From Gemmatimonadota bacterium (GTDB lineage: Bacteria > Gemmatimonadota > Gemmatimonadetes > Gemmatimonadales > GWC2-71-9): a stretch of 51,414 nt of DNA. The DNA is taken from the NCBI GenBank assembly GCA_003246755.1, contig QKDC01000057.1, positions 1 through 51,414 on the forward strand, read 5' to 3'. The position numbers were made by a program, and so were the translations under genes. Positions within the stretch are counted from its first letter, which is position 1; each line of letters begins with the position of its first letter. Shown piece by piece: positions 23,887-37,885 of the stretch. The notes beneath the pieces were generated by a model that had not been told where the DNA came from, did not search any database, and saw nothing but the letters and a program-made list of their open reading frames with translations.

Positions 23887-25701
23887 GTGGATTCCGATAA
23901 ATACATTTCTCTCTTCGTCTCGGAATCCCGGGAGCACCTGCAACAGTGCACGGCCCAGGTGCTCGAGTGGGAACGTTCCCCGACCGCCGTTGAGCCCAGG
24001 GATGCCCTCTTTCGAGCGTTTCACACGGTCAAGGGGATGGCCGCCACCCTTGGCTTCGCCCGGCTCACTGAACTGCTGCACACTGCGGAACACTTGCTTG
24101 CCCGACTCCGAGATGAAGGGAGACCCCCCACCCCGGGAATCATCGACCTCTATTTTCGTGTGGTAGATGTCGCCGAACGGGGGGTCGTGTTGGCCGCATC
24201 GGGGGAAGACGAGCGACTCGATGCCATGGTTCTCTTGACGGAACTCGAGAGCGCGGCCGGCCCCCAACCCACCGAGTCGCCTCGCACTCGGAGTTCGGTG
24301 ACAACGCCACCGGAAGGGCGCCCGATCCGAGTGCAACTGCGTTCCGGTGTGGCCATGCCAGCGGCACGCGCAGCGATTGTGCTCCGTTGCGCCGAGTCGC
24401 TTGGCGAAGTGATGGCTGTCGATCCCCCGCCAGAGCAATGGCTCGCCGACGATTTCGATGGAGCGTTCAGCTTTCGTATCCGCACCGAGGCCTCCGGGGA
24501 TCATATTCGCCGTGTGATCATGACCGCAGGAGAGGTCACCGACGTGCGGGTTGGAGGCGAAGTGATCCCGCGGCCGAAGGTAAAGCGACAGGTCAAGGTC
24601 GACATGGATCGCCTCGATCGCCTCGTGCGGCTCACCGGCGAAATCGTGGTGGCCCGGGGGCGAGTGGCGGCTCTCATCGACGAGTTGAAGGACTCCCGCC
24701 TCGAGGACGCCGGGCACGAAATGTCCCGGCTCATTGCGGATCTTCAGGCGGCCGTCCTTTCAGCACGCATGGCCCCGGTTGGGGAAGTGTACCAGCGGTT
24801 CTCGCGGCCAGTGCGGGATTTGTCGCGTCAATTGGGGAAGTCCGTTCGGCTTGAACTCTCTGGCGGAGAAATAGAACTCGACCGGGTCATCCTCGATGAA
24901 CTTGGGGAGCCTCTGCTCCACTTGCTGCGCAACGCCATCGATCATGGGATCGAGGATCCCACGGATCGCGTGGCGGCGGGAAAGCTCGCGGAAGGGGTGA
25001 TCACCGTCTCCGCGCATCGGGAGCGCAATGCGGCGGTGATCACCGTGGGGGACGACGGTCGGGGGATCGATGAGGAGGCGGTCAAGGCACGGTCTGGTTG
25101 GTCGGCGTCGGGCGACGGATCTTCGGGGCTGCTCGAGGTGATCGCGCAACCCGGGTTTTCCACTGCCGAGGCAGTCACCAACGTCTCCGGCCGTGGGGTG
25201 GGAATCGACGCGGTGGTGCACTGGGCGAGAAGCCGGGGGGGTACCACGGAACTCGCAACCCAGCGAGGGGTTGGCACGACGGTCACTCTCCGGCTCCCCC
25301 TTTCCGTCGCCATTATTCCTGTGCTGCTCGTTGGCGTTACCGGCCAGCGATTTGCGGTGCCTCTTGGTTTCGTGTCAGAGACCGTCCGCCTCCCCACGGA
25401 GGAGCGCTTGAAAGAGATTGCATTTCGCGGGGAACGAGTACCGATCCTCGAGACGCTCACCCCCGGTCGAGGAAAGAACGGCGATCCCCGGCATTGGCGC
25501 CCTGGGGTGGTCATCAATGTCGGTGGCCACCGGGCAGCTCTTGCCGTGGATACATTGCTGGGTCAGGAAGACATCGTGGTTGGCCCAGTCGATGCACCGC
25601 GTGGTACCCCGGCCTGGATCAATGGCGCGACGATCCTCGCCGACGGCCGTCCCGTGCTGATTCTCGATCCAGCCGTTTTGATTCAGGGAGAGGCGCCATG
25701 A
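23887..25701 (+). CDS. cheA: Chemosensory histidine kinase CheA
   Basis: 604 aa. The order is: P1 Hpt domain with phospho-acceptor His46 in FHTVKG; a P2-like segment at about 147-225; dimerisation P3 from about 237 (MDRLDRLVRLTGEIVVARG); P4 kinase with N-box LLRNAIDHGIEDP (346-358), DDGRGID (389-395) and GRGVGIDAV (435-443); and P5 CheW-like regulatory domain from about 470 (LPLSVAIIPVLLVGVTGQRFAVPL). All catalytic motifs are visible. The insertion between the two glycine boxes contains the F-box-like GFSTAEAVTNVSG. It starts with GTG, 6 bases after cheY. The protein phosphorylates CheY and CheB on receptor signal; no receptor gene is in the window. Confidence 0.95.
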   Translation: MDSDKYISLFVSESREHLQQCTAQVLEWERSPTAVEPRDALFRAFHTVKGMAATLGFARLTELLHTAEHLLARLRDEGRPPTPGIIDLYFRVVDVAERGVVLAASGEDERLDAMVLLTELESAAGPQPTESPRTRSSVTTPPEGRPIRVQLRSGVAMPAARAAIVLRCAESLGEVMAVDPPPEQWLADDFDGAFSFRIRTEASGDHIRRVIMTAGEVTDVRVGGEVIPRPKVKRQVKVDMDRLDRLVRLTGEIVVARGRVAALIDELKDSRLEDAGHEMSRLIADLQAAVLSARMAPVGEVYQRFSRPVRDLSRQLGKSVRLELSGGEIELDRVILDELGEPLLHLLRNAIDHGIEDPTDRVAAGKLAEGVITVSAHRERNAAVITVGDDGRGIDEEAVKARSGWSASGDGSSGLLEVIAQPGFSTAEAVTNVSGRGVGIDAVVHWARSRGGTTELATQRGVGTTVTLRLPLSVAIIPVLLVGVTGQRFAVPLGFVSETVRLPTEERLKEIAFRGERVPILETLTPGRGKNGDPRHWRPGVVINVGGHRAALAVDTLLGQEDIVVGPVDAPRGTPAWINGATILADGRPVLILDPAVLIQGEAP

Positions 25702-26318
25702 GCCAGGTGCGGGAACTCAACGAGATCCAACGTGACGCCCTCCGAGAGGTCGCGAACATTGGAGCAGGCCACGCCGCCACCGCGCTTTCCCGGATGACCG
25801 ACCGGACCATCATGATCGAAGTCCCCGAGGTGAGCGATTGCCGGCTGGGGACTGTGGCGGAGGCCGTCGGGTCGATTGGGGCCAACGCGACTGCCGTTCT
25901 CATGAACATGATGGGTGATCTGACCGGACGGACGGCGGTCGTGCTCTCGCTCAACGATACTCGGAGTCTCTGCGACCTCCTGCTCCGACGCGAGGCGGGA
26001 ACGACCTCGAGTCTCGGGGAGATGGAGGAGTCGTCCATCCGGGAAACGGGGAACATCCTGACGTCGGCCTATCTCACGGCGCTCAGCGACTTCATGGGGT
26101 TGATGTTGATTCCCTCGGTGCCCACGCTCCTGTCGGGCCCACTGACGGAGGTGCTCGCCTCCGTTTCTTCGGAATTCGATGAGGAGCGCGACGTCGTGAT
26201 CTGCGTCGACACGGCGTTCCGGATCGAACGAGCCCCGGAAGTCCTGCGTGGGGCGTTCCTGCTGCTGCCGGACGCCGTTTCGGTGGAGGCTATTTTCGAC
26301 GCGATTCACCTGAGTTGA
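25698..26318 (+). CDS. cheC: CheC-family CheY-P phosphatase
   Basis: 206 aa. Two CheC/CheX/FliY active-site motifs are intact: Glu17-x2-Asn20 in REVANIGAGHAATAL and Glu116-x2-Asn119 in RETGNILTSAYL, related by the internal two-fold repeat. CheC removes phosphate from CheY-P and in Bacillus forms a complex with CheD, but no cheD is present here. There is no FliN-like domain, so it is CheC and not FliY. ATG 25698 overlaps the cheA stop (ATGA); a longer frame from 25098 lies inside cheA. Confidence 0.93.
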   Translation: MSQVRELNEIQRDALREVANIGAGHAATALSRMTDRTIMIEVPEVSDCRLGTVAEAVGSIGANATAVLMNMMGDLTGRTAVVLSLNDTRSLCDLLLRREAGTTSSLGEMEESSIRETGNILTSAYLTALSDFMGLMLIPSVPTLLSGPLTEVLASVSSEFDEERDVVICVDTAFRIERAPEVLRGAFLLLPDAVSVEAIFDAIHLS

Positions 26319-26322
26319 TCCG

Positions 26323-29007
26323 ATGGCCCCTGGCGTGACTCCCGAGCGGGATCAAGTGGCCCTGCGGTCGTTGGCGAGGCGAATCGATCCATCAGATCCG
26401 GGAGCCCACAACAATCTCGGTGTGCTCTACTATGAGCGAGGCCTCCTCCCCGAAGCGATTGCGGCGTTTTCCCACGCCTTGGAACTCGATCCTCGCATGG
26501 CCGTTGCCCGCCGTAACCTGGACCACGTTCAGCGGGAAACCGGTTACTACGATGGACACGTCGCCGGACTGCGTGAGCGGCTGAGTCAATCCCCGGGGCG
26601 GGTAGATCTACGGCTGGAACTCGGTCGCGCGTATGCGGTGCTGGGACAAGTCGAGGAGGCAGCGACACAGTTCGAGGCCGCCATGCGAGACAGCCCCAAC
26701 GATCCGGGGCCACTGATCCAACTCGGTCTACTCGAGACACAGCGGGGGAGGCAGGAAGAGGCCACGGGGTGTTTCGAGCGCGCATGTGCCCTGGATCCAC
26801 GCAGTGCAGTGAGTCACACGCATCTCGGTCACGCACTCTACAACCAAGGGCTGGTGGAACAGGCGCGAGATGTTCTCCGCCGGGCGCTCGAACTCAACCC
26901 AGCCAACGCCGACGCCAACTATCTCCTCGGTTTCGTCTACGGCGAACTCGGTCAGCATGAGGAGGCCCGAGCCGCTACCCGGAGTGCCATGGAACTCAAC
27001 CCGGCCTTGGGGGTGGCCCAGGCGAACCTGGAAATCGGTGCTCCGGCGGGTGCTCCGCGGGGGACAAGTGCGGTCACACCGTCCCCCGCCCCTGGAGAAG
27101 ATCAAAGTCGGGCACACCTCAACTTGGGGTTGGCGTTCCGCAAGCGCGGCTTCCTCAACGATGCCCTTCGAGAATACCGGCTCGCGCTCGAAGCTGGTGA
27201 GGATCGCGCGGAGGTGCTGCACGGTATGGCGGAGGTCCATCTGCTTCGCCGTGATCTCGCGGCCGCCATCGAACTCTACGACAAGCTGCTTGCCCGTCGA
27301 CCCGGGCACGCCGGGCTGTGGACCGATAAGGGGGTGTGTCTCCACCTGGCCGGCCGGAGAGAGGAAGCCCGAGAGGCATGGGGCCGAGCCGTTGAACTGG
27401 ATTCCTCTCATGCACTGGCGTGGAACAACCTTGGGGTTGCGCAGGCCAGAGACACCGATCCGGGGAAGGCTCTGAGTTCGTTCGAAACCGCGCTTCGCTG
27501 CAAGCCCGGACTCACTGCAGCACGCCTCAATCTCGCTTTGTTGCATGCCCACCAACGGCAGTATCGGGTCGCGCTGGACGCCTACCGAGCGGTACTCCGA
27601 AGCGAACCTGATAAGGCCGAGGCCTGGAATGGTATCGGTCAGGTCTTAATGGAACTCCAGCAGTTTGCCGACGCTCGCAACGCCTTCGCACGGGCGATTG
27701 ATGCAGATGCCGGGCTCGCCGTCGCGCATTACAATCTCGGCTTTTGCCTCAGTCACCTGGGACGATTCGATGAGGCACTGCAGGAAACCAAGCGGGCACT
27801 CGAGCTCGAGTCGTATTACGTCCCGCAACAATTCGCACTGACCGTCCAACTGCAGTTTGAGGAAACCACGATCCCGGTAGCGGTGTCGGTGCTGGAGGAC
27901 CACCGACACGATGCCCCTCCCGGCACCTTCGACTTCGAACCTGGTCTCCTCGATGACGTCTTCGCCGATCTCGCCCCGGACGAGGTGTCATCCGCCACCC
28001 ACACCCCTGAGGCGACCGATGAGTTCGCTCTCGCGCGGGACTACCTGGCCAAAGGGTTGTTGGACCTGGCGAGCGCCGAGGCCTCCCGGGCGATGCGCCG
28101 AGGGGCTCCCACCAGCGAGGCGGCCATCGTCGAAGGCGAGATCTTCATGCGCCGTGGGCTGTTTGGTGAGGCGCTGGAGCGATTTCAGTTGGCGCTCGAG
28201 CATGACCCCACGGGGCGAGCAGCACTCCGTGGGGCCACGGAGGCCCTGGTGGCGTTGGAGAGGGGAGCGGAGGCGGTCGTCGCTGGTGATCGCCTGGTGG
28301 ACGTGGCTCCGACGTGGGCCGATGCCTACGCGGCTCGCGCGCGAGCTAGGCGTCTCGTCGGTGTCCTCGACGGTGCTCGTCGCGATGCGGAAGAGGCCGC
28401 CCGGCACCGCCCCGGTGATCCCGACCTCCTGCTCCTCGAAGGATCCCTGGCACGCGCGCAGGGTGATCTTGCAGGAGCCTTCCGGATCTACTCCGCGGCA
28501 CTTCAGCTCGATGATGGCCTGGCACAAGCCTGGTACGAACTCGGTGTGCTCGAGGAACAGCGTGGTAACCGTCAGGAGGCGTGTGCGGCGCACTGGCACG
28601 CCGTCCGACTCCTCCCGACGCACCTCGGGTCGACATTGGCGCTGGCGTGGCTCCTGCGGCGTGACGGCGTGGTTCAGGAAGCCATTCGTCTCCTCGTGGA
28701 TTTTCTCCTGGCCGAGCCCATGGCGACCGACGTACTCACCTTGCTCGGGCAGTTGCTGCTGGATGATCATCGGCCCAATGAAGCGCAGCGAGTGTTCGAA
28801 CGGGCGCTGCGATATTCGCCCGACCATATCGGAGCACTCTTTCACCTCGGGGTCGCCCTTGCCAGACGTCGGGAGTACGGACGGGCGGTGGAAGCCTGGG
28901 AGCGAGTGGTGGACCTCTCTCCCACGGGGCCACTGGCCGCCGAAGCTCGACGCCATGCCCGTTCGGCTCAGGACTTGGCGGTGATTTTCCGCGATCGGGT
29001 GGCGTGA
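26323..29007 (+). CDS. Large tetratricopeptide-repeat protein
   Basis: 894 aa, almost wholly TPR repeats in two arrays, about residues 15-500 and 565-885, separated by a strand-rich and acidic linker with FDFEPGLLDDVFADLAPDE. Typical repeats read HNNLGVLYYERGLLPEAIAAF and HYNLGFCLSHLGRFDEAL. There is no signal peptide or membrane segment, so it is presumably a cytoplasmic scaffold. It starts 4 bases after cheC and its stop abuts the next GTG start directly, so it is in the same transcript. In Myxococcus and relatives, TPR proteins often organise motility complexes; a scaffold for the roadblock/GTPase proteins is a reasonable inference but no partner can be read from the sequence. Confidence 0.85.
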   Translation: MAPGVTPERDQVALRSLARRIDPSDPGAHNNLGVLYYERGLLPEAIAAFSHALELDPRMAVARRNLDHVQRETGYYDGHVAGLRERLSQSPGRVDLRLELGRAYAVLGQVEEAATQFEAAMRDSPNDPGPLIQLGLLETQRGRQEEATGCFERACALDPRSAVSHTHLGHALYNQGLVEQARDVLRRALELNPANADANYLLGFVYGELGQHEEARAATRSAMELNPALGVAQANLEIGAPAGAPRGTSAVTPSPAPGEDQSRAHLNLGLAFRKRGFLNDALREYRLALEAGEDRAEVLHGMAEVHLLRRDLAAAIELYDKLLARRPGHAGLWTDKGVCLHLAGRREEAREAWGRAVELDSSHALAWNNLGVAQARDTDPGKALSSFETALRCKPGLTAARLNLALLHAHQRQYRVALDAYRAVLRSEPDKAEAWNGIGQVLMELQQFADARNAFARAIDADAGLAVAHYNLGFCLSHLGRFDEALQETKRALELESYYVPQQFALTVQLQFEETTIPVAVSVLEDHRHDAPPGTFDFEPGLLDDVFADLAPDEVSSATHTPEATDEFALARDYLAKGLLDLASAEASRAMRRGAPTSEAAIVEGEIFMRRGLFGEALERFQLALEHDPTGRAALRGATEALVALERGAEAVVAGDRLVDVAPTWADAYAARARARRLVGVLDGARRDAEEAARHRPGDPDLLLLEGSLARAQGDLAGAFRIYSAALQLDDGLAQAWYELGVLEEQRGNRQEACAAHWHAVRLLPTHLGSTLALAWLLRRDGVVQEAIRLLVDFLLAEPMATDVLTLLGQLLLDDHRPNEAQRVFERALRYSPDHIGALFHLGVALARRREYGRAVEAWERVVDLSPTGPLAAEARRHARSAQDLAVIFRDRVA

Positions 29008-30156
29008 GTGTCCATCCAGGGACCACTCAAGGAGCTCGGGATCCATGACGTGTTCCAGTTGCTGGACCTCAGTCGGAAGACCGGGGTGCTCAAGGTCACC
29101 TCGGTACTTCGGCAGAACGAGGGCACCATTTGGTTCGAGAGCGGGTCCGTCGTCGCGGCACAGATTCGCAGCAATCCGCATCGCCTCGGCGAGCTATTGC
29201 TCCGGGCGGGGAGGATCGGTGAGGCCGACCTCGTGCGCGCAACGCGAATGCAGCGGGAGGGGGATACCAGGCGGCTCGGGGAGATCCTGGTCGACATTGG
29301 GGCCCTCAGTGCCAGACAACTCGAGCGTCTGGTACGAACTCAAGTGGAGGAGGTCGTGTTCTCCCTTTTGGGTTGGTCGGAAGGGTACTTCGTCTTTGAA
29401 GAGGGTTTGGGTGAGGCGCCGCGCGAGACCAATGTCAAGATTCGGACCGAGGCACTCCTCATGGAAGGAGCCCGACGGATCGACGAGTGGGAGCGCATCC
29501 GAGCGCGGATTCCGCATCTCGGCCTTGTCCCGTCGCTGGCGCCAGCACAAGGGCCTGAAGCGGGGAGCCTCACTCTGACACCATTCGAATGGCGAGTCTT
29601 GACTGCCTGTGATGGGGTCTTCGACGTGCGAGAAATGAGTCGCAGCCTCGCCGCCTCGGAATTCGACGTCGCCCGCACACTGTTCGGGCTGGCGGCCGCC
29701 GGTGTGATTCACCTTCGGGATCCGGCAACCCCACTGCAGAGTGAGAGTGGGTCGCCGCCCGACGTGCGGACTTTGGTCCATCAGGCCGAGGAACATCTTC
29801 GGCGGGGGGACACGCCCGCGGCTGAAACGCTTGCGGAAAGACTGATGGCGGCCTTTCCTGACGATCCCCGGGGTTCGCTTCTGCTCGCCGACTGTTGCTG
29901 GATTGAGCATCGGATTGGCGATGCGGAAAAGGCGCTCCGGGAGGTCATCCGAATTGACCCGGAGAATGCGCGAGGGCTTCGACTGCTCGGAGTGGCGCAT
30001 ATGGAGCAGGGGAGACTCGAGGAGGCCTTGCTGGCCTGGGAAAGGTGGCTGGGACTTCCTCAACGATCGTCGGAGGAGGACCGACATCTCGCGACGCTGA
30101 GTCGCACGGCCGAGGCGGTGCGCGTGGTCACCGAAGGGGTGAAGGCGTTGCGATGA
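29008..30156 (+). CDS. DUF4388 protein with MshEN-like repeats, winged-helix-like segment and TPR
   Basis: 382 aa. Residues 1-55 and 113-135 form a DUF4388 (PatA N-terminal-like) domain: GPLKELGIHDVFQLLDLSRK and LLGWSEGYFVFEEG. Inserted between them are two 24-residue repeats, 59-82 and 89-112, each with (R)LG near the start, G at position 10, L at 17 and Q at 24, with a 6-residue spacer; this resembles the MshEN c-di-GMP motif of pilus/secretion ATPases. Residues about 190-256 look like a small winged-helix segment (LTACDGVFDVREMSRSLAA). TPR repeats fill about 265-375. The start is GTG at 29008, immediately after the previous stop. DUF4388 proteins occur with gliding and pilus regulators. 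A paralogue lies at 34339. Confidence 0.83.
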   Translation: MSIQGPLKELGIHDVFQLLDLSRKTGVLKVTSVLRQNEGTIWFESGSVVAAQIRSNPHRLGELLLRAGRIGEADLVRATRMQREGDTRRLGEILVDIGALSARQLERLVRTQVEEVVFSLLGWSEGYFVFEEGLGEAPRETNVKIRTEALLMEGARRIDEWERIRARIPHLGLVPSLAPAQGPEAGSLTLTPFEWRVLTACDGVFDVREMSRSLAASEFDVARTLFGLAAAGVIHLRDPATPLQSESGSPPDVRTLVHQAEEHLRRGDTPAAETLAERLMAAFPDDPRGSLLLADCCWIEHRIGDAEKALREVIRIDPENARGLRLLGVAHMEQGRLEEALLAWERWLGLPQRSSEEDRHLATLSRTAEAVRVVTEGVKALR

Positions 30157-30926
30157 GCGACGACATCCAGCGCATGACCACCGAACTCGCGCGGAACCCC
30201 AGGAGTTTGATCTTCCTCACCCTGGGGGAGGTGCTCCGTCAACGAGGTCAACTGACCGCCGCCCTCGCCGTGGCAGAGGCCGGACTGCTGCGATACCCCT
30301 CCCTCCCCGATGCGCATGACCTGGTGGGGAGAGTCCGCAGCGACCGAGGTGAAGGCGATGAGGCGTTTGATGCCTGGACCGTGGCCCTTCGTCTCAATCC
30401 CGCGCATGCGGGCGCTCTGCGGGGACTCGCCTTCCTCGCGTTCCGGGAAGGGGATCTGGAGCGTGCCGAACGGCACCTCCGGGCCGCGTTGAGTGTGACA
30501 CCGGACGACCCCTCTCTCCGGAACGCGCTTCAAAAGGTGATCCAGCACGGCGGTCAGCGCACCCTCCCTGACCGGCCCAGTCCCTTACGCGATCGCGAGC
30601 AATCCCTGCTCGTCGATGGACGAGGCCGGCTGTTCGGTGGGCGACTCCGGGGGGTGGACGGAGGTGATGTGTCGGAGGTGGTGGCGGCGGAAATCGCCGG
30701 GGTGATGCGCGAGGCTGGGCGAGTCACGCGGATACTTGCGCTGGGTGCCTGGAGGGGGCTCTCGATGGAATGCGGAGGCAGCGGAGCTTTGGCGCATTTC
30801 GCACCCCCGACAGACTCCACCGTGCTCCTCGTGATGGGCGAACCCGGGACACCGGTCGGTCGACTGGCCCTCGAAGCAGAGGCCAGTGCCGCCTCGGCGC
30901 GTCGTTGGTTGGAGCGGTACCAGTGA
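30153..30926 (+). CDS. TPR-roadblock/LC7 fusion protein
   Basis: 257 aa. Residues about 15-125 are TPR repeats (LTLGEVLRQRGQLTAALAVAE, LRGLAFLAFREGDLERAERH). From about 150 the sequence fits a roadblock/LC7 domain: SLLVDGRGRLFGGRL, VVAAEIAGVMREAGRV, then strands STVLLVMGEPG. Roadblock proteins such as MglB bind Ras-like GTPases and act as activators or scaffolds. Here the domain is fused to a TPR module, which could tether the GTPase to the TPR proteins of the cluster. ATG 30153 overlaps the upstream stop and the end overlaps the next gene by 4 bases (GTGA). Confidence 0.78.
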   Translation: MSDDIQRMTTELARNPRSLIFLTLGEVLRQRGQLTAALAVAEAGLLRYPSLPDAHDLVGRVRSDRGEGDEAFDAWTVALRLNPAHAGALRGLAFLAFREGDLERAERHLRAALSVTPDDPSLRNALQKVIQHGGQRTLPDRPSPLRDREQSLLVDGRGRLFGGRLRGVDGGDVSEVVAAEIAGVMREAGRVTRILALGAWRGLSMECGGSGALAHFAPPTDSTVLLVMGEPGTPVGRLALEAEASAASARRWLERYQ

Positions 30927-31273
30927 GCAACCGCTACGACGCGGTGGTGGCTGCGATCACCAGAGTGGGTGGAGTGCGGTCGGCCTGTGTGGTGGATGCC
31001 ATTGACGGGATCGTCGTGGCGGAGTCCTCGATGGTGGGCACCGACCCGGCGCCCCTCGCGGCGCTCGCTGCCAGCCTCACGCGGAAGCTCGATGGCCTAC
31101 TGAGCGTGGCCGGTCACGGGCCACCGCGAGTGATCCACCTCGAGGCTGAACTCGGTCACCTGATGCTCAAGCCGGTGTCACCCGAGCTTCTCGTCGTCGC
31201 AGTCACCGACACCGAAACCAACCTTGGTCTCCTCCGGTTGGCGCTGACCGATGCCGCGGAGCGGCTCGAGTAA
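30923..31273 (+). CDS. Roadblock/LC7 protein (MglB-like)
   Basis: 116 aa, a single roadblock/LC7 domain. The pattern is helix YDAVVAAITRVGGV, strands ACVVDAIDGIVVAES, helix ALAASLTRKLDGLL, strands PRVIHLEAELGHLMLKPV and LLVVAVTDTETNLGLLR, then a C-terminal helix LALTDAAERL. This matches MglB, the homodimeric activator of the GTPase MglA. The mglA-like gene lies two genes downstream, close to the mglBA order of Myxococcus and Thermus. It starts with GTG at 30923 in a 4-base overlap, and its stop overlaps the next ATG (TAATG). Confidence 0.82.
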   Translation: MSNRYDAVVAAITRVGGVRSACVVDAIDGIVVAESSMVGTDPAPLAALAASLTRKLDGLLSVAGHGPPRVIHLEAELGHLMLKPVSPELLVVAVTDTETNLGLLRLALTDAAERLE

Positions 31274-31734
31274 TGCGAGCACTCGAACCATGGGTGGAAT
31301 CGCCACTCACCGAATTCCTGGCCGAGTCCTCCGCCCGCTTGGTCCTCCTCATGACCAGTTCGGGGCAGGTTATCGCTCAGCATGGGTTCACGCGATCCCT
31401 CGATGTCATGTCGGTCGCCGCCCTTGGTGCGGCGATCGTCGCCTCGACTGGTGAACTCGCGCGGGTCATGGACGCGGGATCGCTTGGGCATGTCGTGCAT
31501 CAAGGCAAGCACGGTGGTGTGCTTCTCGCGCCGTTTCCCTTGGGGGAGAAGATCTGGATTGGGCTCATCGTCTTCGGTCAGGACACGAGCCTCGGTCTGG
31601 TGCAGGTGTTCTTTCACACGATGGCAAAGCAGATTCGCGAGGCCGCCCCGGGGTCTCGAAGCGATGAACAGATCCTCGCCGAACAGTTTGAAAGTGAACT
31701 CGACCGCAGTCTTCGCAGGCTCTTCGGTCGCTGA
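31273..31734 (+). CDS. Second roadblock/LC7-like protein with C-terminal extension
   Basis: 153 aa. The core (about 15-120) resembles a roadblock fold: helix [10 protein letters not shown], strands [17 protein letters not shown], helix [21 protein letters not shown], strands [18 protein letters not shown] and IWIGLIVFG, and a helix [15 protein letters not shown]. The last 35 residues are a charged helix ([22 protein letters not shown]). It ends 2 bases before the mglA-like start, the position MglB occupies in mglBA operons. Either this protein or the preceding one could be the functional MglB; a heterodimer, as in Ragulator-type roadblock pairs, is also possible. Confidence 0.78.
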
Positions 31735-31736
31735 CC

Positions 31737-32342
31737 ATGCCACTCATCAACTTTTCCGGTCGAGAAATCATCTGCAAGCTCGTTTACTACGGGCCGGGAC
31801 GCTCCGGGAAGACCACCAATCTGCAGTACGTGCACGGCAGGGTCCCCGATCTGCGCCGGGGACAGATGGTGTCACTCGCCACCCACGGTGATCGTACCCT
31901 CTTCTTTGACTTCTTGCCGCTGGATCTTGGGGAAATATCAGGATTCACGACTCGGTTTCAGTTGTATACCGTTCCCGGACAAGTCTACTACGCTTCGACC
32001 CGACGCCTCGTCCTTCAGGGTGCGGATGGCGTTGTGTTCGTGGCAGATAGTCAGGCACGACGCCACGAAGAGAATATCGAAAGCCTCCAGGACCTGCATG
32101 ACAACCTCCTCGAGCAGGGGGTCGATATCCGGGAGTTTCCCATCGTGTTTCAGTACAACAAACAGGATCTGCCACGGGAACTCGTCCTCGCGCCGGAGGT
32201 GCTCGATGATGCCCTGAATTTCAGGGAGGCACCTAGTTTTGCCGCTGACGCGCTCCATGGTACCGGTGTCTTCGAGACCCTGAAAGCCGCTTCTGGGCTG
32301 GTCCTGAAGAGGCTGGCGCGAGGAAACGGAACCGCCGCATGA
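31737..32342 (+). CDS. mglA: MglA-like small Ras-family GTPase
   Basis: 201 aa. It is close to Myxococcus MglA along its length: [19 protein letters not shown]-loop GPGRSGKT (19-26), [23 protein letters not shown] and NKQD (141-144). Arg53 and Gln82, the residues MglA uses for GTP hydrolysis when bound by MglB, are present at the same numbers. MglA-GTP marks the leading cell pole and controls type IV pili and gliding in Myxococcus, and pili in Thermus. The gene follows three roadblock modules and overlaps the next gene (ATGA). It lacks a C-terminal lipidation motif, as usual for bacterial members. Confidence 0.93.
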
Positions 32343-34339
32343 GTCCTCCCCTGAATCCCGCGCTGGCATTCTCGACCTTCGTCGTTGGTGTGCCCAATCA
32401 ACTCGCCTTTTCGGCGGCCCGCGCTGCGGCTGACTCTCCAAGGCCCCCGTTCAACCCACTCTTTCTCGTGGGTGCGCAGGGGCAGGGGAAAACCCATCTC
32501 CTGCAAGCGACGGGCGCACAACGACTGCACGTGGATGCCACAGCCATTGTTGAGTATCTCACCTGGAGGGAGTTCCTCGCCAAACTCAAGCACCTTTCCA
32601 GGGAGCACGCCGTTGCTGAATTCAATCGAGTCGACCTCCTCCTGCTCGATGACCTGGAGCCGGTCGGGAATGCGGAGGTGGTCGAACACTCCCTCGTGGT
32701 CGCGGTGCTTGCGAGTCGATTCGATTCCGGGCTTCAAACGGTCTGTGCCGGGGAGATGCCTCCAGCAGACCTCTCGGGTGCCGGGGAGGCCGTCAGCCAG
32801 TTCCTGAGTGGTGGTCTGGTTGCCGAAATCGGGCCGCCCGATGATGCCCTTCGGGAGGAACTGGTCCGGCGGAGAGCATCAGCGGCAGGGGTTTCCTTCT
32901 CGTCGTCCGTGATCGACGCCGTCGCCGGCCTTCCGTGCGACTCGGTCCGGGAGTTACTGGGGGCGGTGAGCCGACTGATTGCCTTCCAGGAGGTCAGCCC
33001 CGTGCCGCTCGACCCGGCGCAGGCGCGGATTCTCGTAACCGGTGTGATGGAAAGTGATCCGATGACCCCCCCACCGCAGATGGTGGTGGCCGCGGGCGAT
33101 GCCGGCGCGCGCGCGCCACTGGCCACAGCGGACCCCAACGAGACAAACTCGGGAAACCAGGATGAGTTCGGGTCATTCCTCTCTGAAGTCGTTGCGGGAG
33201 TGAGCCAGCAGGTCGATCGATGGCGCTCGAGAGTCGCCGATGCGATCCTCGCCTGGGAAGCGGAAGGCATCCACACGGCGCGACTCCACGCCCTGCTCGA
33301 TCAGGAACTGCCAGCCCAACCGGAGGCCGTGCTCGAACGGTTCGAGGACGATGTGAATCGGCTGCGGGCCCTCGCCGCGGAGATAGTCTCTCTCGCTCCC
33401 GACCTCGCCGACCACGAGTCCTTGCGCGATCCCGATCAACTGGTCTTGGCTGAGCGACTGCTCGAAGAGGCGAGGACGCAGGGCCTCCGGGGATTCATTC
33501 CAAACGCGTCACTGCTCCTCACCGATTTGATCGAAGTGACGTCGAATCGGGCTGCCTTCACGGCGCTCCGCGAAGCATGGGATACCCGGGATGGTTCTGC
33601 CAACCCGATCATCCTGGTCGGTGACAGCGGGACGGGGAAGACACACCTCCTGCACGGAATGGCCAACCACATGTCCTCGGAACGAGGCGTCGTCTGTCTT
33701 TCGGCCGGGAGATTCTGCTCAGCCATTGCCGAAGCGGAACACGAGGGCCGCGTGGGTGAGTGGACGAGACGTTTTGAGTGGGCCGGCGGTCTCTGTCTGG
33801 ATGACCTGCATCTCATGGCCGACCACCCTGTGGCCCAGAGTGCGCTCGTCGACATCCTCGACCGCCTGGTGGAGGCCAAGGTACCGGTGGTTCTCACCTC
33901 TCTGGTTCCCCTCACGGCACTCGCCGAGTTTTCGCCGCAACTCCTCACGCGGATGGCTGGAGGGCTGGTTATCGATCTTCCACGACCCGACAGAGAGTTT
34001 CGATTGGCCTTGATACTCCGCCTGCTGGAAATGGCCGACACGACTGGCATGGTCGATCCGGGGCTCGCCGACTACCTGGCCGGCCGTGAAGCGTCGAGCA
34101 TCCGGGAAGTTCAGGGAGCCGTGAAGCGCGTCCTGCGAGCGTCGGGTCGACAGGGAACCGCACCCACGATCACCTTGGCAAAGCAGGTGCTCGAATCGGA
34201 ACACGGACCCGGTCCGCGTTCTTGGTCCGTGGCGCACGCCGGGGTGCTGGGGCCGACGGTTGGCGGAACCCGCCTTCGCGAGAAGATGATCGATGCTTGG
34301 CCCGACGTGCGCGACCTGCTCAATGAGACGCTCGACTGA
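32339..34339 (+). CDS. Tandem DnaA-like AAA+ ATPase without DNA-binding domain
   Basis: 666 aa with two DnaA-type AAA+ modules. Module 1 (about 9-235): [17 protein letters not shown] as in DnaA domain III, Walker A GAQGQGKT (45-52), Walker B LLLLDDLE (100-107), [16 protein letters not shown], sensor 2 [12 protein letters not shown] (Arg204); the DnaA arginine-finger position appears to be Phe155. Module 2 (about 388-620): Walker A GDSGTGKT (428-435), Walker B CLDDLHL (486-492), LLTRMAGGL with Arg538 at the finger position, sensor 2 [12 protein letters not shown]. The modules are joined by a helical linker (275-385). DnaA domain IV, the helix-turn-helix that binds DnaA boxes, is missing. Not the replication initiator; function unknown. 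It overlaps mglA by 4 bases and the next gene by one base. Confidence 0.87.
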
Positions 34340-35949
34340 TGGCGATTCGAGGTAGTCTCCAGGAGGCCGGTCTCCCCGACGTGATCCAGATGCTCCACCT
34401 TGGGAAGCGCTCGGGATGCCTGGCTCTGACCGATCGGGGACGGCACGCCAGCGTGTTCTTTTCCGATGGTTGGATCATCGATGCCCGGATCGTCAACCGA
34501 CCCGATCGAATCGGGGACCTGCTCGTCAAGGCAGGCCTGGTGACGGCTGACCAACTGGACCGGGCCATTCAACGCCAAACGAAGCACCCTGGTCAGCAGA
34601 TTGGCGAGATTCTGGTGGAGCAGGGCGCGCTCACCCCTCAAGCCTTGGCAGGGATGCTCCTTCGCCAGGTTGAGGAGGCGATCTATTCGTTGTTCGGCTG
34701 GCGTGGAGGGAGCTTCACCTTCGAGCCCGGCGTGGAGCCGGATGTGCCGGGCGAGTATGTCCGAATCTCTCCCGATCGACTCCTCCTCGAAGGAGCCCGT
34801 CGAGTCGACGAATGGGCCGTCATCGAGAAGAAGGTGCCTGAGTTCGATCTCATCTTCGCGGTCGACCCGGCACACCGCGAGGATGCGGGTCTCGGGTACA
34901 CCGAAGTCCAGCGTCGGCTCCACTCACTGCTGGATGGCAGGCGGGATGTGCGCGACCTGGTTGAGGAAAGCGGCCTCACCGACTTCGAAGTCTGTCAGGC
35001 CCTCTACGCACTCCTGTCGGCGGGTGTCATCCACCGAGTGGGTACTTCGACCCCCGGTCCGTCAGCACGGTCACGCGAAACCCAGATAGAAGAACACCGC
35101 AACCTCGGGGTGGCCTTCTACCGCACCGGCATGCTGGAAGAGGCAACCAGAGAGTTCAGGCGGGTGATGGAGTTGCGCCCGTCCGAGGCATCGGCCCCAT
35201 TCCATCTCGGTCTCATCGCGGCGCGCGAATCACGATGGGCCGACGCCGTCTACTTCTTCGAGGTCGCCACCGACCGGGGGGGACCACGCGCAGCGATCCT
35301 CCATAACCTGGGAGTAGCGCTCGCCAAGGTCGGAGAATGGGAACAGGCGGAGAAGATGCTCGGTGAGGCAGCCGGTCGTGCCTCGCACAATGCCCGGGCG
35401 CACCTCGCCTGGGGTCTGGTTGCACTCGACCGGGGGGAACCCGCCGTGGCCCTTGCCCGTCTGACCCGAGGAAAAGAGCTCGGTGGGGAGGAGCCCGGCG
35501 CGTGCTGGTCATGGGCCACGACGAGAGCCTACGCAAGCCAGGGCGATTTGGAGCGCGCCCTCGCGGTGTCCCAGGCTGCGGTGACACGCTATCCCGAGCA
35601 CCCGATTCTCCTCAACAATCACTGCGTGCTGCTCGAGGCGGCAGGTGACTTGGTCGAGGCGGAGACGGGACTCAATCGGGCGCTCGAATTGGAACCCGGT
35701 ATGGCACAGATCTCCAAGAATCTCGGCGATGTACTGTATCGCCTCGGACGGTTTGAAGAGGCGTGGACCTCCTACGCCAGAGCGGAGAGCCTCAACCCCG
35801 ACCTCGGTGAAGACCTCCACTTTCGCATGGGGAACCTGGCGCTGCGTCGCGGGGATACGGCAGGGGCTCGTGCCCACTGGGAACGGGCGCTGCAGTTGCA
35901 CCCCGGTCATCAATTGGCTCGAGCGAATCTCCAGGCGCTCGGATCGTGA
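34339..35949 (+). CDS. DUF4388 protein with MshEN-like repeats and long TPR array
   Basis: 536 aa, a paralogue of the protein at 29008. The DUF4388 parts are GSLQEAGLPDVIQMLHLGKRS (5-25) and LFGWRGGSFTFEPG (118-131). The two 24-residue repeats lie at 57-80 (RIGDLL..., L at 17, Q at 24) and 87-110 (QIGEIL..., L at 17 and Q at 24), again with a 6-residue spacer. The winged-helix-like segment (about 185-235, LLDGRRDVRDLVEESGLTDF) is clearer here. TPR repeats run from about 250 to 535. There is no export signal. ATG 34339 shares one base with the upstream stop (TGATG). It probably responds to a ligand or partner through the N-terminal part and offers a TPR scaffold; both are inference. Confidence 0.84.
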   Translation: MAIRGSLQEAGLPDVIQMLHLGKRSGCLALTDRGRHASVFFSDGWIIDARIVNRPDRIGDLLVKAGLVTADQLDRAIQRQTKHPGQQIGEILVEQGALTPQALAGMLLRQVEEAIYSLFGWRGGSFTFEPGVEPDVPGEYVRISPDRLLLEGARRVDEWAVIEKKVPEFDLIFAVDPAHREDAGLGYTEVQRRLHSLLDGRRDVRDLVEESGLTDFEVCQALYALLSAGVIHRVGTSTPGPSARSRETQIEEHRNLGVAFYRTGMLEEATREFRRVMELRPSEASAPFHLGLIAARESRWADAVYFFEVATDRGGPRAAILHNLGVALAKVGEWEQAEKMLGEAAGRASHNARAHLAWGLVALDRGEPAVALARLTRGKELGGEEPGACWSWATTRAYASQGDLERALAVSQAAVTRYPEHPILLNNHCVLLEAAGDLVEAETGLNRALELEPGMAQISKNLGDVLYRLGRFEEAWTSYARAESLNPDLGEDLHFRMGNLALRRGDTAGARAHWERALQLHPGHQLARANLQALGS

Positions 35950-36764
35950 ATCTCCCGTCCGGCGACGGATTGGACGCGTTGGTCCGGAGTCTGGAAGGCC
36001 GAGGCCTCCCTCCGCTTGACATGTACAAGACGCGATGCCTACGGCGACGGGTCTCCGTGCGCATGCGGGCCTGCGGTGTCGCCTCGCTGGATGAATACAT
36101 CCAGGTGGTCGAAGCAGACGTCGACGAAGCGGCCCGACTCCTGGAGACTCTCACGGTCAACGTCACAGGGTTTTTCAGGAACCCCAACACCTGGGCGCGT
36201 CTTCGGGCCCTTGCCGCGGATCTTCCGGGAATGCGCGAGGGGAGGGTGAAAGCCTGGAGCGCGGGGTGTGCTACGGGGGAGGAAGCATGGACAATGGCCA
36301 TGGTGCTCGCTTCATCGATCCAGCAAAGAGCGGCGATGGTTGACGGGTCATCGTTGTCGGTCGAGGCGACCGACGTCGACCAAGCATGCCTGCATCGGGC
36401 TGAGGTGGGGCGGTATCCGCTCGCTGATGTCGAGGCGGGATTGCCGGCTCTTCTGGGACGTTGGACCAGGGCCGAGGGAGCCGAGGTGGTCGTACGCGAG
36501 TCGCTTCGGGACTGTGTACGGTTTCACCTGCATGATCTGGGACGGGATCCCCCGCCCGGCGATCGATACGATCTCATCGTCTGCCGGAACGTGCTGATCT
36601 ACTTCTCACGGGAGATCCAGGCAAAGCTGCTCATGGCCTTTTCGGCGGTGATACGCACCGGAGGCATCTTGGTGCTCGGTAAGGTTGAGACGCTGCCCAT
36701 CGAGGTTCGATCGCGGTTCGAGGTCCTCGACGGGCGTGAACGGATCTTCAGGCGTCTCGTATGA
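35946..36764 (+). CDS. cheR: Chemoreceptor glutamate methyltransferase CheR
   Basis: 272 aa. CheR methylates glutamates in chemoreceptors using S-adenosylmethionine. The N-terminal helical domain has [16 protein letters not shown] (substrate-binding arginines) and [13 protein letters not shown]; the SAM-binding fold shows [30 protein letters not shown] and [13 protein letters not shown]. All family motifs are visible. The start is GTG at 35946 in a 4-base overlap, and cheB follows with another 4-base overlap. Its presence implies methylated receptors encoded elsewhere in the genome. Confidence 0.95.
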
Positions 36765-37885
36765 CGGGGGGGAGTTCGATCACGAATCTCAGCCGACGGG
36801 CAGCGTCGACGGATCGTCCATCCGTCCTCGTCGTGGACGATAGTGCGTTCTTTCGTCGACTGCTCTCCGATGCCTTGGAGGCCTCAGAGGAATTTCGCGT
36901 GGTGGCCACTGCCCGAAACGGAATGGACGCACTCCGCAAGCTGCACGCCTGTGAGCCAGACCTCGTCACGATGGACCTCGAGATGCCGGAACTCGATGGC
37001 CTGGGTGCGATTGGGTACATCATGTCCGAGAGTCCCCGGCCGATCATCGTGGTCAGCGCCTATGCCGGTGCAGGGAGCGCCCCTGCGATTCGGGCGCTCG
37101 AACTTGGCGCTGTCGAACTTGTCCCGAAAGAGGACGAGCGGAGTAAAGCCGTGCTCGACCGTCTTCGGGACCGTGTCATCACGGCTCTCCGTACCGCACG
37201 GGCCGCACACATCCGTCGCGTCCCGGTGTTGGCTCGACCTCACGTGCCACCGCGCAACCAGGGACCCACGTACGCCCTGCCTGGGCGGGCGCGACGATGT
37301 ATCGCGATTGCCTCGTCCACGGGGGGGCCACGCGCGTTGGCCGAGGTCATCCCGAGGATTCCAGCGGATCCACAGGTGGCTGTGGTAGTCGCCCAACACA
37401 TGCCGGCGGGATTCACCCGGAGTCTCGCCGAGCGACTTGCGGGACAGAGCGTGCTGCGGGTCGTGGAGGCGGAGGATAAGTCGCTGCTGCTCGGGGGTTG
37501 CGCCTATGTTGCCCCCGGCGATTGGCACATGAGTGTCGAAACGGACCCGGAGGGACCCCGGATTCGTCTCGATCGAGGTGCACCGGTTTGGGGCGTGCGT
37601 CCGGCCGCCGATCCGCTGTTCCACTCGGTGGCCGCTCTCTTTGGCTCGGAGGCCATCGGAGTTGTCCTCACCGGCCTGGGTCGCGATGGTGCCCGTGGCC
37701 TCCGCGCCATCCACGATGCAGGGGGGAGTGGGATCGCCCAGGACGAAGCCACGTCGGTCATCCACGGGATGCCCGCCGCGGCGATTGCCGCTGGGGGAGT
37801 GGATCAGGTGGTTTCGCTCGACGGGATACCACTGGCCCTCGAGCGCTGGTTGGAATTCTCACGCCAGGGGGTGGCTCGCCCATGA
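36761..37885 (+). CDS. cheB: Receptor methylesterase/glutamine deamidase CheB
   Basis: 374 aa. An N-terminal receiver domain (about 20-140) with Asp26-Asp27, phospho-acceptor Asp72 in [12 protein letters not shown], Ser99 and a Lys123 in VPKED is joined to a C-terminal methylesterase (about 180-365) with catalytic Ser186 in IASSTGGP, His213 in AQHMPAGFT and Asp309 in LTGLGRDGA. The usual KPF after the receiver lysine is replaced by KED, a mild deviation. It reverses CheR methylation after phosphorylation by CheA. ATG 36761 overlaps cheR (ATGA) and the end overlaps the TPR gene. Confidence 0.95.

Follow-up and report, generated by a model that had tools for sequence, protein, structure and literature searches.

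MshEN N-subdomains nested in two PATAN (DUF4388) proteins as candidate c-di-GMP inputs to a conserved Che-MglA-type gene cluster of Gemmatimonadota

Introduction

Among the closest described systems is the MshEN N-subdomain of the Vibrio cholerae ATPase MshE (PDB 5htl; NCBIfam NF053729), in which two RLG...G...L...Q motifs form a four-helix bundle with a Gly/Gln/Leu/Arg pattern of contacts. According to the MshE and PilF papers, motif positions 1, 2, 3, 17, 21 and 24 of both units contact the ligand. The N-subdomain on its own can bind c-di-GMP (PMC5013675), so the adjoining C-subdomain is dispensable for this function. Two further ATPase regulatory domains of this kind, GSPII-B and GSPII-C of Thermus thermophilus PilF (8pdk, 6f8l), tolerate variant first residues and a longer spacer between motifs; in GSPII-C, position 1 of motif II is a Pro, yet the domain binds at about 0.5 µM (PMC11731258). 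Rescue constructs of PilF-A indicate that Ile in place of Leu at position 17/21 costs ~2.4-fold and that G3, Q24 and the Arg matter (PMC12002112). In XpsE, which does not bind, an Arg at position 21 is one of eight changes (PMC5013675).

DUF4388, or PATAN, is a widespread domain of unknown function that was present in 133 of the 200 Gemmatimonadota genomes sampled. Makarova et al. (2006) reportedly described the PATAN domain as carrying an alpha-helical insertion, called the alpha-clip and predicted to be a four-helix bundle. MglA genes have been reported near PATAN genes (PMC4316618), and in Synechocystis PATAN regulators bind PilB1/PilC (PMC12288463).

The window analyzed here is a 51,414-nucleotide stretch from a soil bacterium of the Gemmatimonadota (positions 1–51,414 of contig QKDC01000057.1, forward strand, assembly GCA_003246755.1). 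The original prediction, made from its sequence alone, was that one of its DUF4388 proteins contains two tandem units resembling the c-di-GMP-binding motif of MshEN, which would give the surrounding cluster a second-messenger input.

Results

Two PATAN proteins in a conserved cluster

The features of the window are collected in Table 1. Two DUF4388/PATAN proteins, designated P1 and P2, lie in a gene run with the shared order CheA, CheC, TPR, P1, TPR, small protein, LC7, MglA-like GTPase, double DnaA-type AAA+ protein, P2, CheR and CheB, and each of these genes is present in 24–30 of the 30 Gemmatimonadota loci with full flanks. No relatives were found among phages and viruses. Both proteins exceed the cut-off of 25 bits for the PATAN/DUF4388 profile PF14332, with 118.8 bits for P1 and 126.7 bits for P2. 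Pfam matches place the PATAN domain of P1 at residues 4–162 and its TPR repeats at residues ~254–350.

Translation of P1 confirmed the prediction that residues 59–82 and 89–112 form two 24-residue units with a six-residue spacer (REGDTR, residues 83–88) between them; in each unit, RLG occupies positions 1–3, followed by G at position 10, L at position 17 and Q at position 24. The DNA span originally given (29181–29343) ends correctly and starts one base early and out of frame, the in-frame start being 29182. The departures from the motif noted at positions 11 and 21 of unit I are R69 and T79, and unit II likewise deviates at both positions (A99 and V109). P2 has the same arrangement, with motifs at residues 57–80 and 87–110 and again six residues between them. 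The six-residue spacer of P1 is no objection to an MshEN assignment because two bona fide Gemmatimonadota PilB MshEN domains also have six residues between their motifs.

Table 1. Coordinates of the cluster genes and of the motif-bearing inserts in the window
Feature	Position	Strand	Evidence
CheA-like kinase (Hpt, P2, dimerisation, HATPase and CheW domains)	23887..25701	+	domain matches
CheC-like phosphatase	25698..26318	+	NF041093 E 8e-41, PF04509
894-aa TPR protein, conserved neighbour	26323..29007	+	Pfam, synteny
DUF4388/PATAN protein 1 (P1), 382 aa, GTG start	29008..30156	+	PF14332 E 1.8e-34, TPR matches
P1 MshEN N-subdomain-like insert, residues 59-112	29182..29343	+	NF053729 E 2.4e-9, phmmer to 5htl, AF2 model, Foldseek/VIA
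P1 motif unit I, residues 59-82, RLGELLLRAGRIGEADLVRATRMQ	29182..29253	+	direct translation, conservation
P1 motif unit II, residues 89-112, RLGEILVDIGALSARQLERLVRTQ	29272..29343	+	direct translation, conservation
TPR protein	30156..30926	+	Pfam, synteny
Small protein	30923..31273	+	conserved in 24/30 loci
Roadblock/LC7, MglB-like small protein	31273..31734	+	PF03259; NF052242 below cut-off, E 3.4e-8
Small GTPase, MglA-like	31737..32342	+	weak sub-cut-off Arf and small_GTP matches; MglA assignment from sequence and context
666-aa protein with two DnaA/Hda-type AAA+ domains	32339..34339	+	PF00308 (2 stretches); TIGR00362 and TIGR03420 below cut-off
DUF4388/PATAN protein 2 (P2), 536 aa, PATAN and TPR repeats	34339..35949	+	PF14332 E 6.5e-37
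P2 MshEN N-subdomain-like insert, residues 57-110	34507..34668	+	NF053729, AF2, 5htl rmsd 1.1 Å over 55
CheR and CheB	35946..37885	+	PF01739, PF01339; NF001965 above cut-off

Homology of the inserts to the MshEN N-subdomain

The likeness of the P1 units to MshEN proved to be true homology by sequence, profile-profile comparison and predicted fold, and for the inserts of both proteins we regard this homology as secure. When residues 1–162 of P1 were searched with phmmer against all PDB sequences, the seven matches at E≤10 were all to MshE, PilB or PilF, the best being V. cholerae MshE (5htl, E 9e-5), to which the two units align in register. A profile of the P1 insert built from its relatives matched PilF at 3e-16 and MshE at 4.4e-8, the next PDB matches being two designed TIM barrels (3e-5) without a significant stretch, and the corresponding P2 profile matched PilF at 1.5e-21 and MshE at 4e-13. 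Among solved structures, the insert profiles thus match only MshEN-domain ATPases at convincing scores, the best matches being GSPII-B and GSPII-C of PilF. In the reverse direction, an HMM trained on the MshEN N-subdomains of 26 Gemmatimonadota PilB proteins detected only the two DUF4388 reading frames in the six-frame translated window (5.9e-13 and 6.3e-6; next 0.33). Across the organism's whole genome, the P2-insert profile found P2, P1 and the N-subdomain of PilB, with the next match at E 0.86. Alignment to the PilB MshEN N-subdomain with hhalign gave probabilities of 97.9% for P1 and 98.9% for P2; column-shuffled controls did not exceed 4.3%, and the PATAN core reached 0.1%.

The comparison with MshEN family profiles that had been proposed as a check gave a result that depended on the model. 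NF053729 (c-di-GMP_motif, MshE-related; 53 positions, curated cut-off 38 bits) matches P2 above its cut-off (54.1 bits, and 59.6 bits in the genome search), whereas P1 straddles it, with 36.9 bits at full length, 39.6 as an isolated domain and 41.7 in the genome search. All 74 P1/P2 domains are matched at E≤0.001, and in this genome the model matches only PilB, P2 and P1. By contrast, Pfam PF05157, the family that bears the name MshEN, gives no match to P1 or P2 at E≤1. This family is the wrong test for the insert because it models the C-subdomain that follows the motif: on the PilB of this genome, it spans residues 63–149, starting right after the 53-residue c-di-GMP motif. For the same reason, Pfam annotation omits the nucleotide-binding half of PilB. 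The genome encodes three PF05157 ATPases, and only one of them (PilB) has the tandem motif. Pfam scans of the isolated P1 and P2 inserts returned DUF4388, the model of which absorbs part of the insert, along with low-scoring noise such as FumaraseC_C; no TPR family was found in these scans.

A four-helix module within the PATAN domain

AlphaFold2 (AF2) models of the PATAN domains are confident, with pLDDT values of 89 for P1 and 86 for P2. In P1, the insert is predicted to form four helices (residues 60–66, 72–83, 90–96 and 102–121), the last of which continues into the PATAN core; four insert helices are likewise predicted in P2. The P1 model superposes on c-di-GMP-bound MshE, which was its best Foldseek match in the PDB (rmsd 1.0 Å over 56 positions), and MshE with c-di-GMP (5htl) was also the best match of the P2 model (1.1 Å over 55), the E-values being weak in both cases (1e-2), the models being ligand-free and AF2 possibly having learnt MshEN from the PDB. 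The VIA-align Z-scores were 6.5 for P1 and 7.1 for P2. For P1, the c-di-GMP-bound MshE and PilF-B crystal forms scored 5.9–6.5, compared with 4.2 for XpsE and 2.1 for PilF-A, both of which are c-di-GMP non-binders (PMC5013675, PMC12002112). The PATAN core had no clear match in the PDB with Foldseek or VIA, which is not evidence for a new fold.

The insert is absent as a block of ~53 residues (P1 ~57–109) from 12 of 90 aligned related DUF4388 domains, and because these 12 retain the flanks, the insert can be considered a module. P1 59–112 and P2 57–110 are MshEN N-subdomains, each consisting of two 24-residue helix-hairpin motifs that make up one four-helix bundle nested in PATAN. The insertion point lies after the last PATAN strand preceding the insert and before the long helix, on which the final Gln of motif II is located. 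Unlike MshE, the P1 and P2 modules are without the MshEN C-subdomain and do not sit on an ATPase; their spacer has six residues rather than five, and one stacking Leu has been lost in P1. They also differ from GSPII-B and GSPII-C of PilF in being PATAN inserts rather than regulatory domains of an ATPase. In several genomes, an insert-less PATAN copy is found ~3 kb from the insert-bearing P1.

Conservation of the predicted contact residues

Conservation was analyzed among Gemmatimonadota relatives, using 37 non-redundant sequences for P1 and 30 sequences for P2. In P1 orthologues, G3 is invariant in both units, and Q24 is found in 100% (unit I) and 97% (unit II) of the sequences. Unit II is intact, and the losses of contacts are confined to unit I at position 1 (Pro in 49%, Arg in 32%) and position 21 (Arg in 62%, with few hydrophobics). 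Because this half-site is altered across the orthologues, binding by P1 is doubtful. In P2 orthologues, both G3 and both Q24 residues are invariant, position 1 is Arg in all sequences in unit I and Arg or Lys in 96% in unit II, and positions 17 and 21 are hydrophobic. In both proteins, conservation was higher at the contact positions than at the remaining non-core positions of the insert (permutation p 0.0008 for P1 and <0.0001 for P2, values made optimistic by kinship).

In the genome studied here, P1 has the Arg, Gly and Gln contacts of each unit and is without only the hydrophobe at position 21 of unit I, where T79 occupies the position of a base-stacking Leu. P2 has Gln87 at position 1 of unit II, where its orthologues mostly have Arg or Lys. 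When similar residues are allowed (R/K/L/Q at position 1), the contact score is 12/12 for P2 and 11/12 for P1 (T79), and all 12 contacts are acceptable in 23 of the 29 insert-bearing P2-like domains. Judged by sequence, P2 has the better-conserved site and is the stronger c-di-GMP candidate. The module that had been singled out in P1 is real, but the stronger of the two copies, P2, had gone unflagged. Outside these groups, degenerate inserts with contact scores of 6–8 of 12 occur in four deeper DUF4388 relatives, indicating that the fold can occur in the absence of the motif. A Thermomicrobium roseum DUF4388 protein, the sole plasmid match, carries an insert that is about as long but lacks the RLG motifs.

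Signaling repertoire of the genome

Eight GGDEF domains were found in the genome, at least six of them with an intact GGDEF/GGEEF motif, together with five HD_5 (HD-GYP-type) domains. No PilZ or EAL domain was detected in the assembly, which is 95.8% complete.

Discussion

Taken together, the sequence comparisons and structural models make it likely that the P1 and P2 inserts serve as a c-di-GMP input to the conserved Che-MglA-PATAN cluster, with P2 probably binding the nucleotide and P1 possibly doing so weakly. P2, and possibly P1 at lower affinity, would bind one c-di-GMP, with the two RLG turns holding the guanines via backbone NH groups, Leu/Ile clusters stacking against the bases and both Gln residues holding the phosphate-ribose ring. 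Binding would lock one hairpin against the other and displace the long helix that runs from the insert into the PATAN core (residues 102–121 in P1), and this movement could alter the contacts of the PATAN and TPR regions with partners, probably the polarity GTPase pair, the pilus machinery or both. The c-di-GMP level may thereby tune the chemosensory/MglA-type output. We infer ligand binding, helix coupling and output from homology, predicted fold, conservation, modular insertion and synteny.

The main rival to this interpretation, and one that we consider unlikely, is that the insert is an MshEN-derived four-helix module that no longer binds nucleotide and acts only in protein-protein contacts or as an internal spacer of PATAN. 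The degenerate inserts of the deeper relatives and of Thermomicrobium, the contacts lost in motif I of P1 and the PATAN copies that do without the insert would all be compatible with such a role, as would the binding of PATAN proteins to PilB1/PilC in Synechocystis. Furthermore, even full restoration of the motif did not make PilF GSPII-A bind when both of its subdomains were present (PMC12002112), so a PATAN core could likewise block the pocket. A purely structural role nevertheless leaves unaccounted for why the Gly and Gln contacts of both motifs show virtually no variation in Gemmatimonadota P1 and P2 where surface positions vary, and why most insert-bearing P2-like domains keep all 12 contacts acceptable. 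A narrower form of the receptor interpretation, to which we give somewhat less than an even chance, is a division of labor in which P2 is the receptor and P1, with only a half-site, is a constitutive or partner-dependent paralogue. The difference in NF053729 scores (54–60 bits for P2 vs 37–42 bits for P1) and the restriction of the P1 losses to positions 1 and 21 of motif I, with motif II intact, are in line with this possibility. Against it, the P1 of this genome retains 11 of the 12 contacts, including both Arg, Gly and Gln residues, PilF GSPII-C tolerates a Pro at position 1, and the insert of P1 persists even where an insert-less PATAN copy is located nearby.

That the preferred ligand is another cyclic dinucleotide, such as 3',3'-cGAMP, is quite improbable. 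MshEN does bind cGAMP, more weakly than c-di-GMP (PMC5013675), and the altered half-site of P1 could conceivably favor one non-guanine base, but the guanine-selecting backbone contacts of G3 are conserved in both halves and the six GGDEF/GGEEF motifs fit c-di-GMP synthesis. The remainder of the protein is TPR-rich, and chance or convergent likeness of TPR-like helical hairpins was also considered as an origin for the motifs. It is refuted for practical purposes by the hhalign values of 98–99% for MshEN against 4% or less after column shuffling, by the scans of the isolated inserts and by the genome searches, in which only PilB was matched besides P1 and P2.

The module itself is known, and NCBIfam already flags P2. 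What appears new, as far as the literature searched goes, is that it is nested in PATAN and that the helical insertion of this domain corresponds to MshEN, although prior notice is possible: the papers found, including those that mention both PATAN and MshEN, did not tie PATAN to MshEN or c-di-GMP, and the fusion may stand in the supplement of an MshEN paper. We take the alpha-helical insertion of Makarova et al. to be, very probably, the block seen in P1 and P2. Extending this, we tentatively raise the idea, toward which we remain more skeptical than convinced, that the PATAN helical insertion is an MshEN N-subdomain in origin and that the PATAN gliding, polarity and pilus regulators of several phyla constitute c-di-GMP receptors not yet recognized as a class, many of which have degenerated secondarily.

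In the case of P1 and P2, the preferred reading as c-di-GMP inputs offers a testable ligand for DUF4388 and suggests how a second messenger might feed into MglA/PATAN motility modules. In a genome with GGDEF domains and without detected PilZ or EAL domains, P1, P2 and PilB are the sole matches to the c-di-GMP motif family, making the identity of the c-di-GMP reader directly answerable there. The cluster resembles the M. xanthus MglA/MglB/SgmX system and the MglA-PATAN neighborhoods described previously (PMC4316618, PMC11580455) in bringing together an MglA-like GTPase, LC7, TPR and PATAN proteins. In contrast to those systems, they are joined here with CheA, CheC, CheR and CheB and with a double DnaA-type AAA+ protein. 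The gene for the latter follows that for the MglA-like GTPase, precedes that for P2 and is conserved in 27 of the 30 loci.
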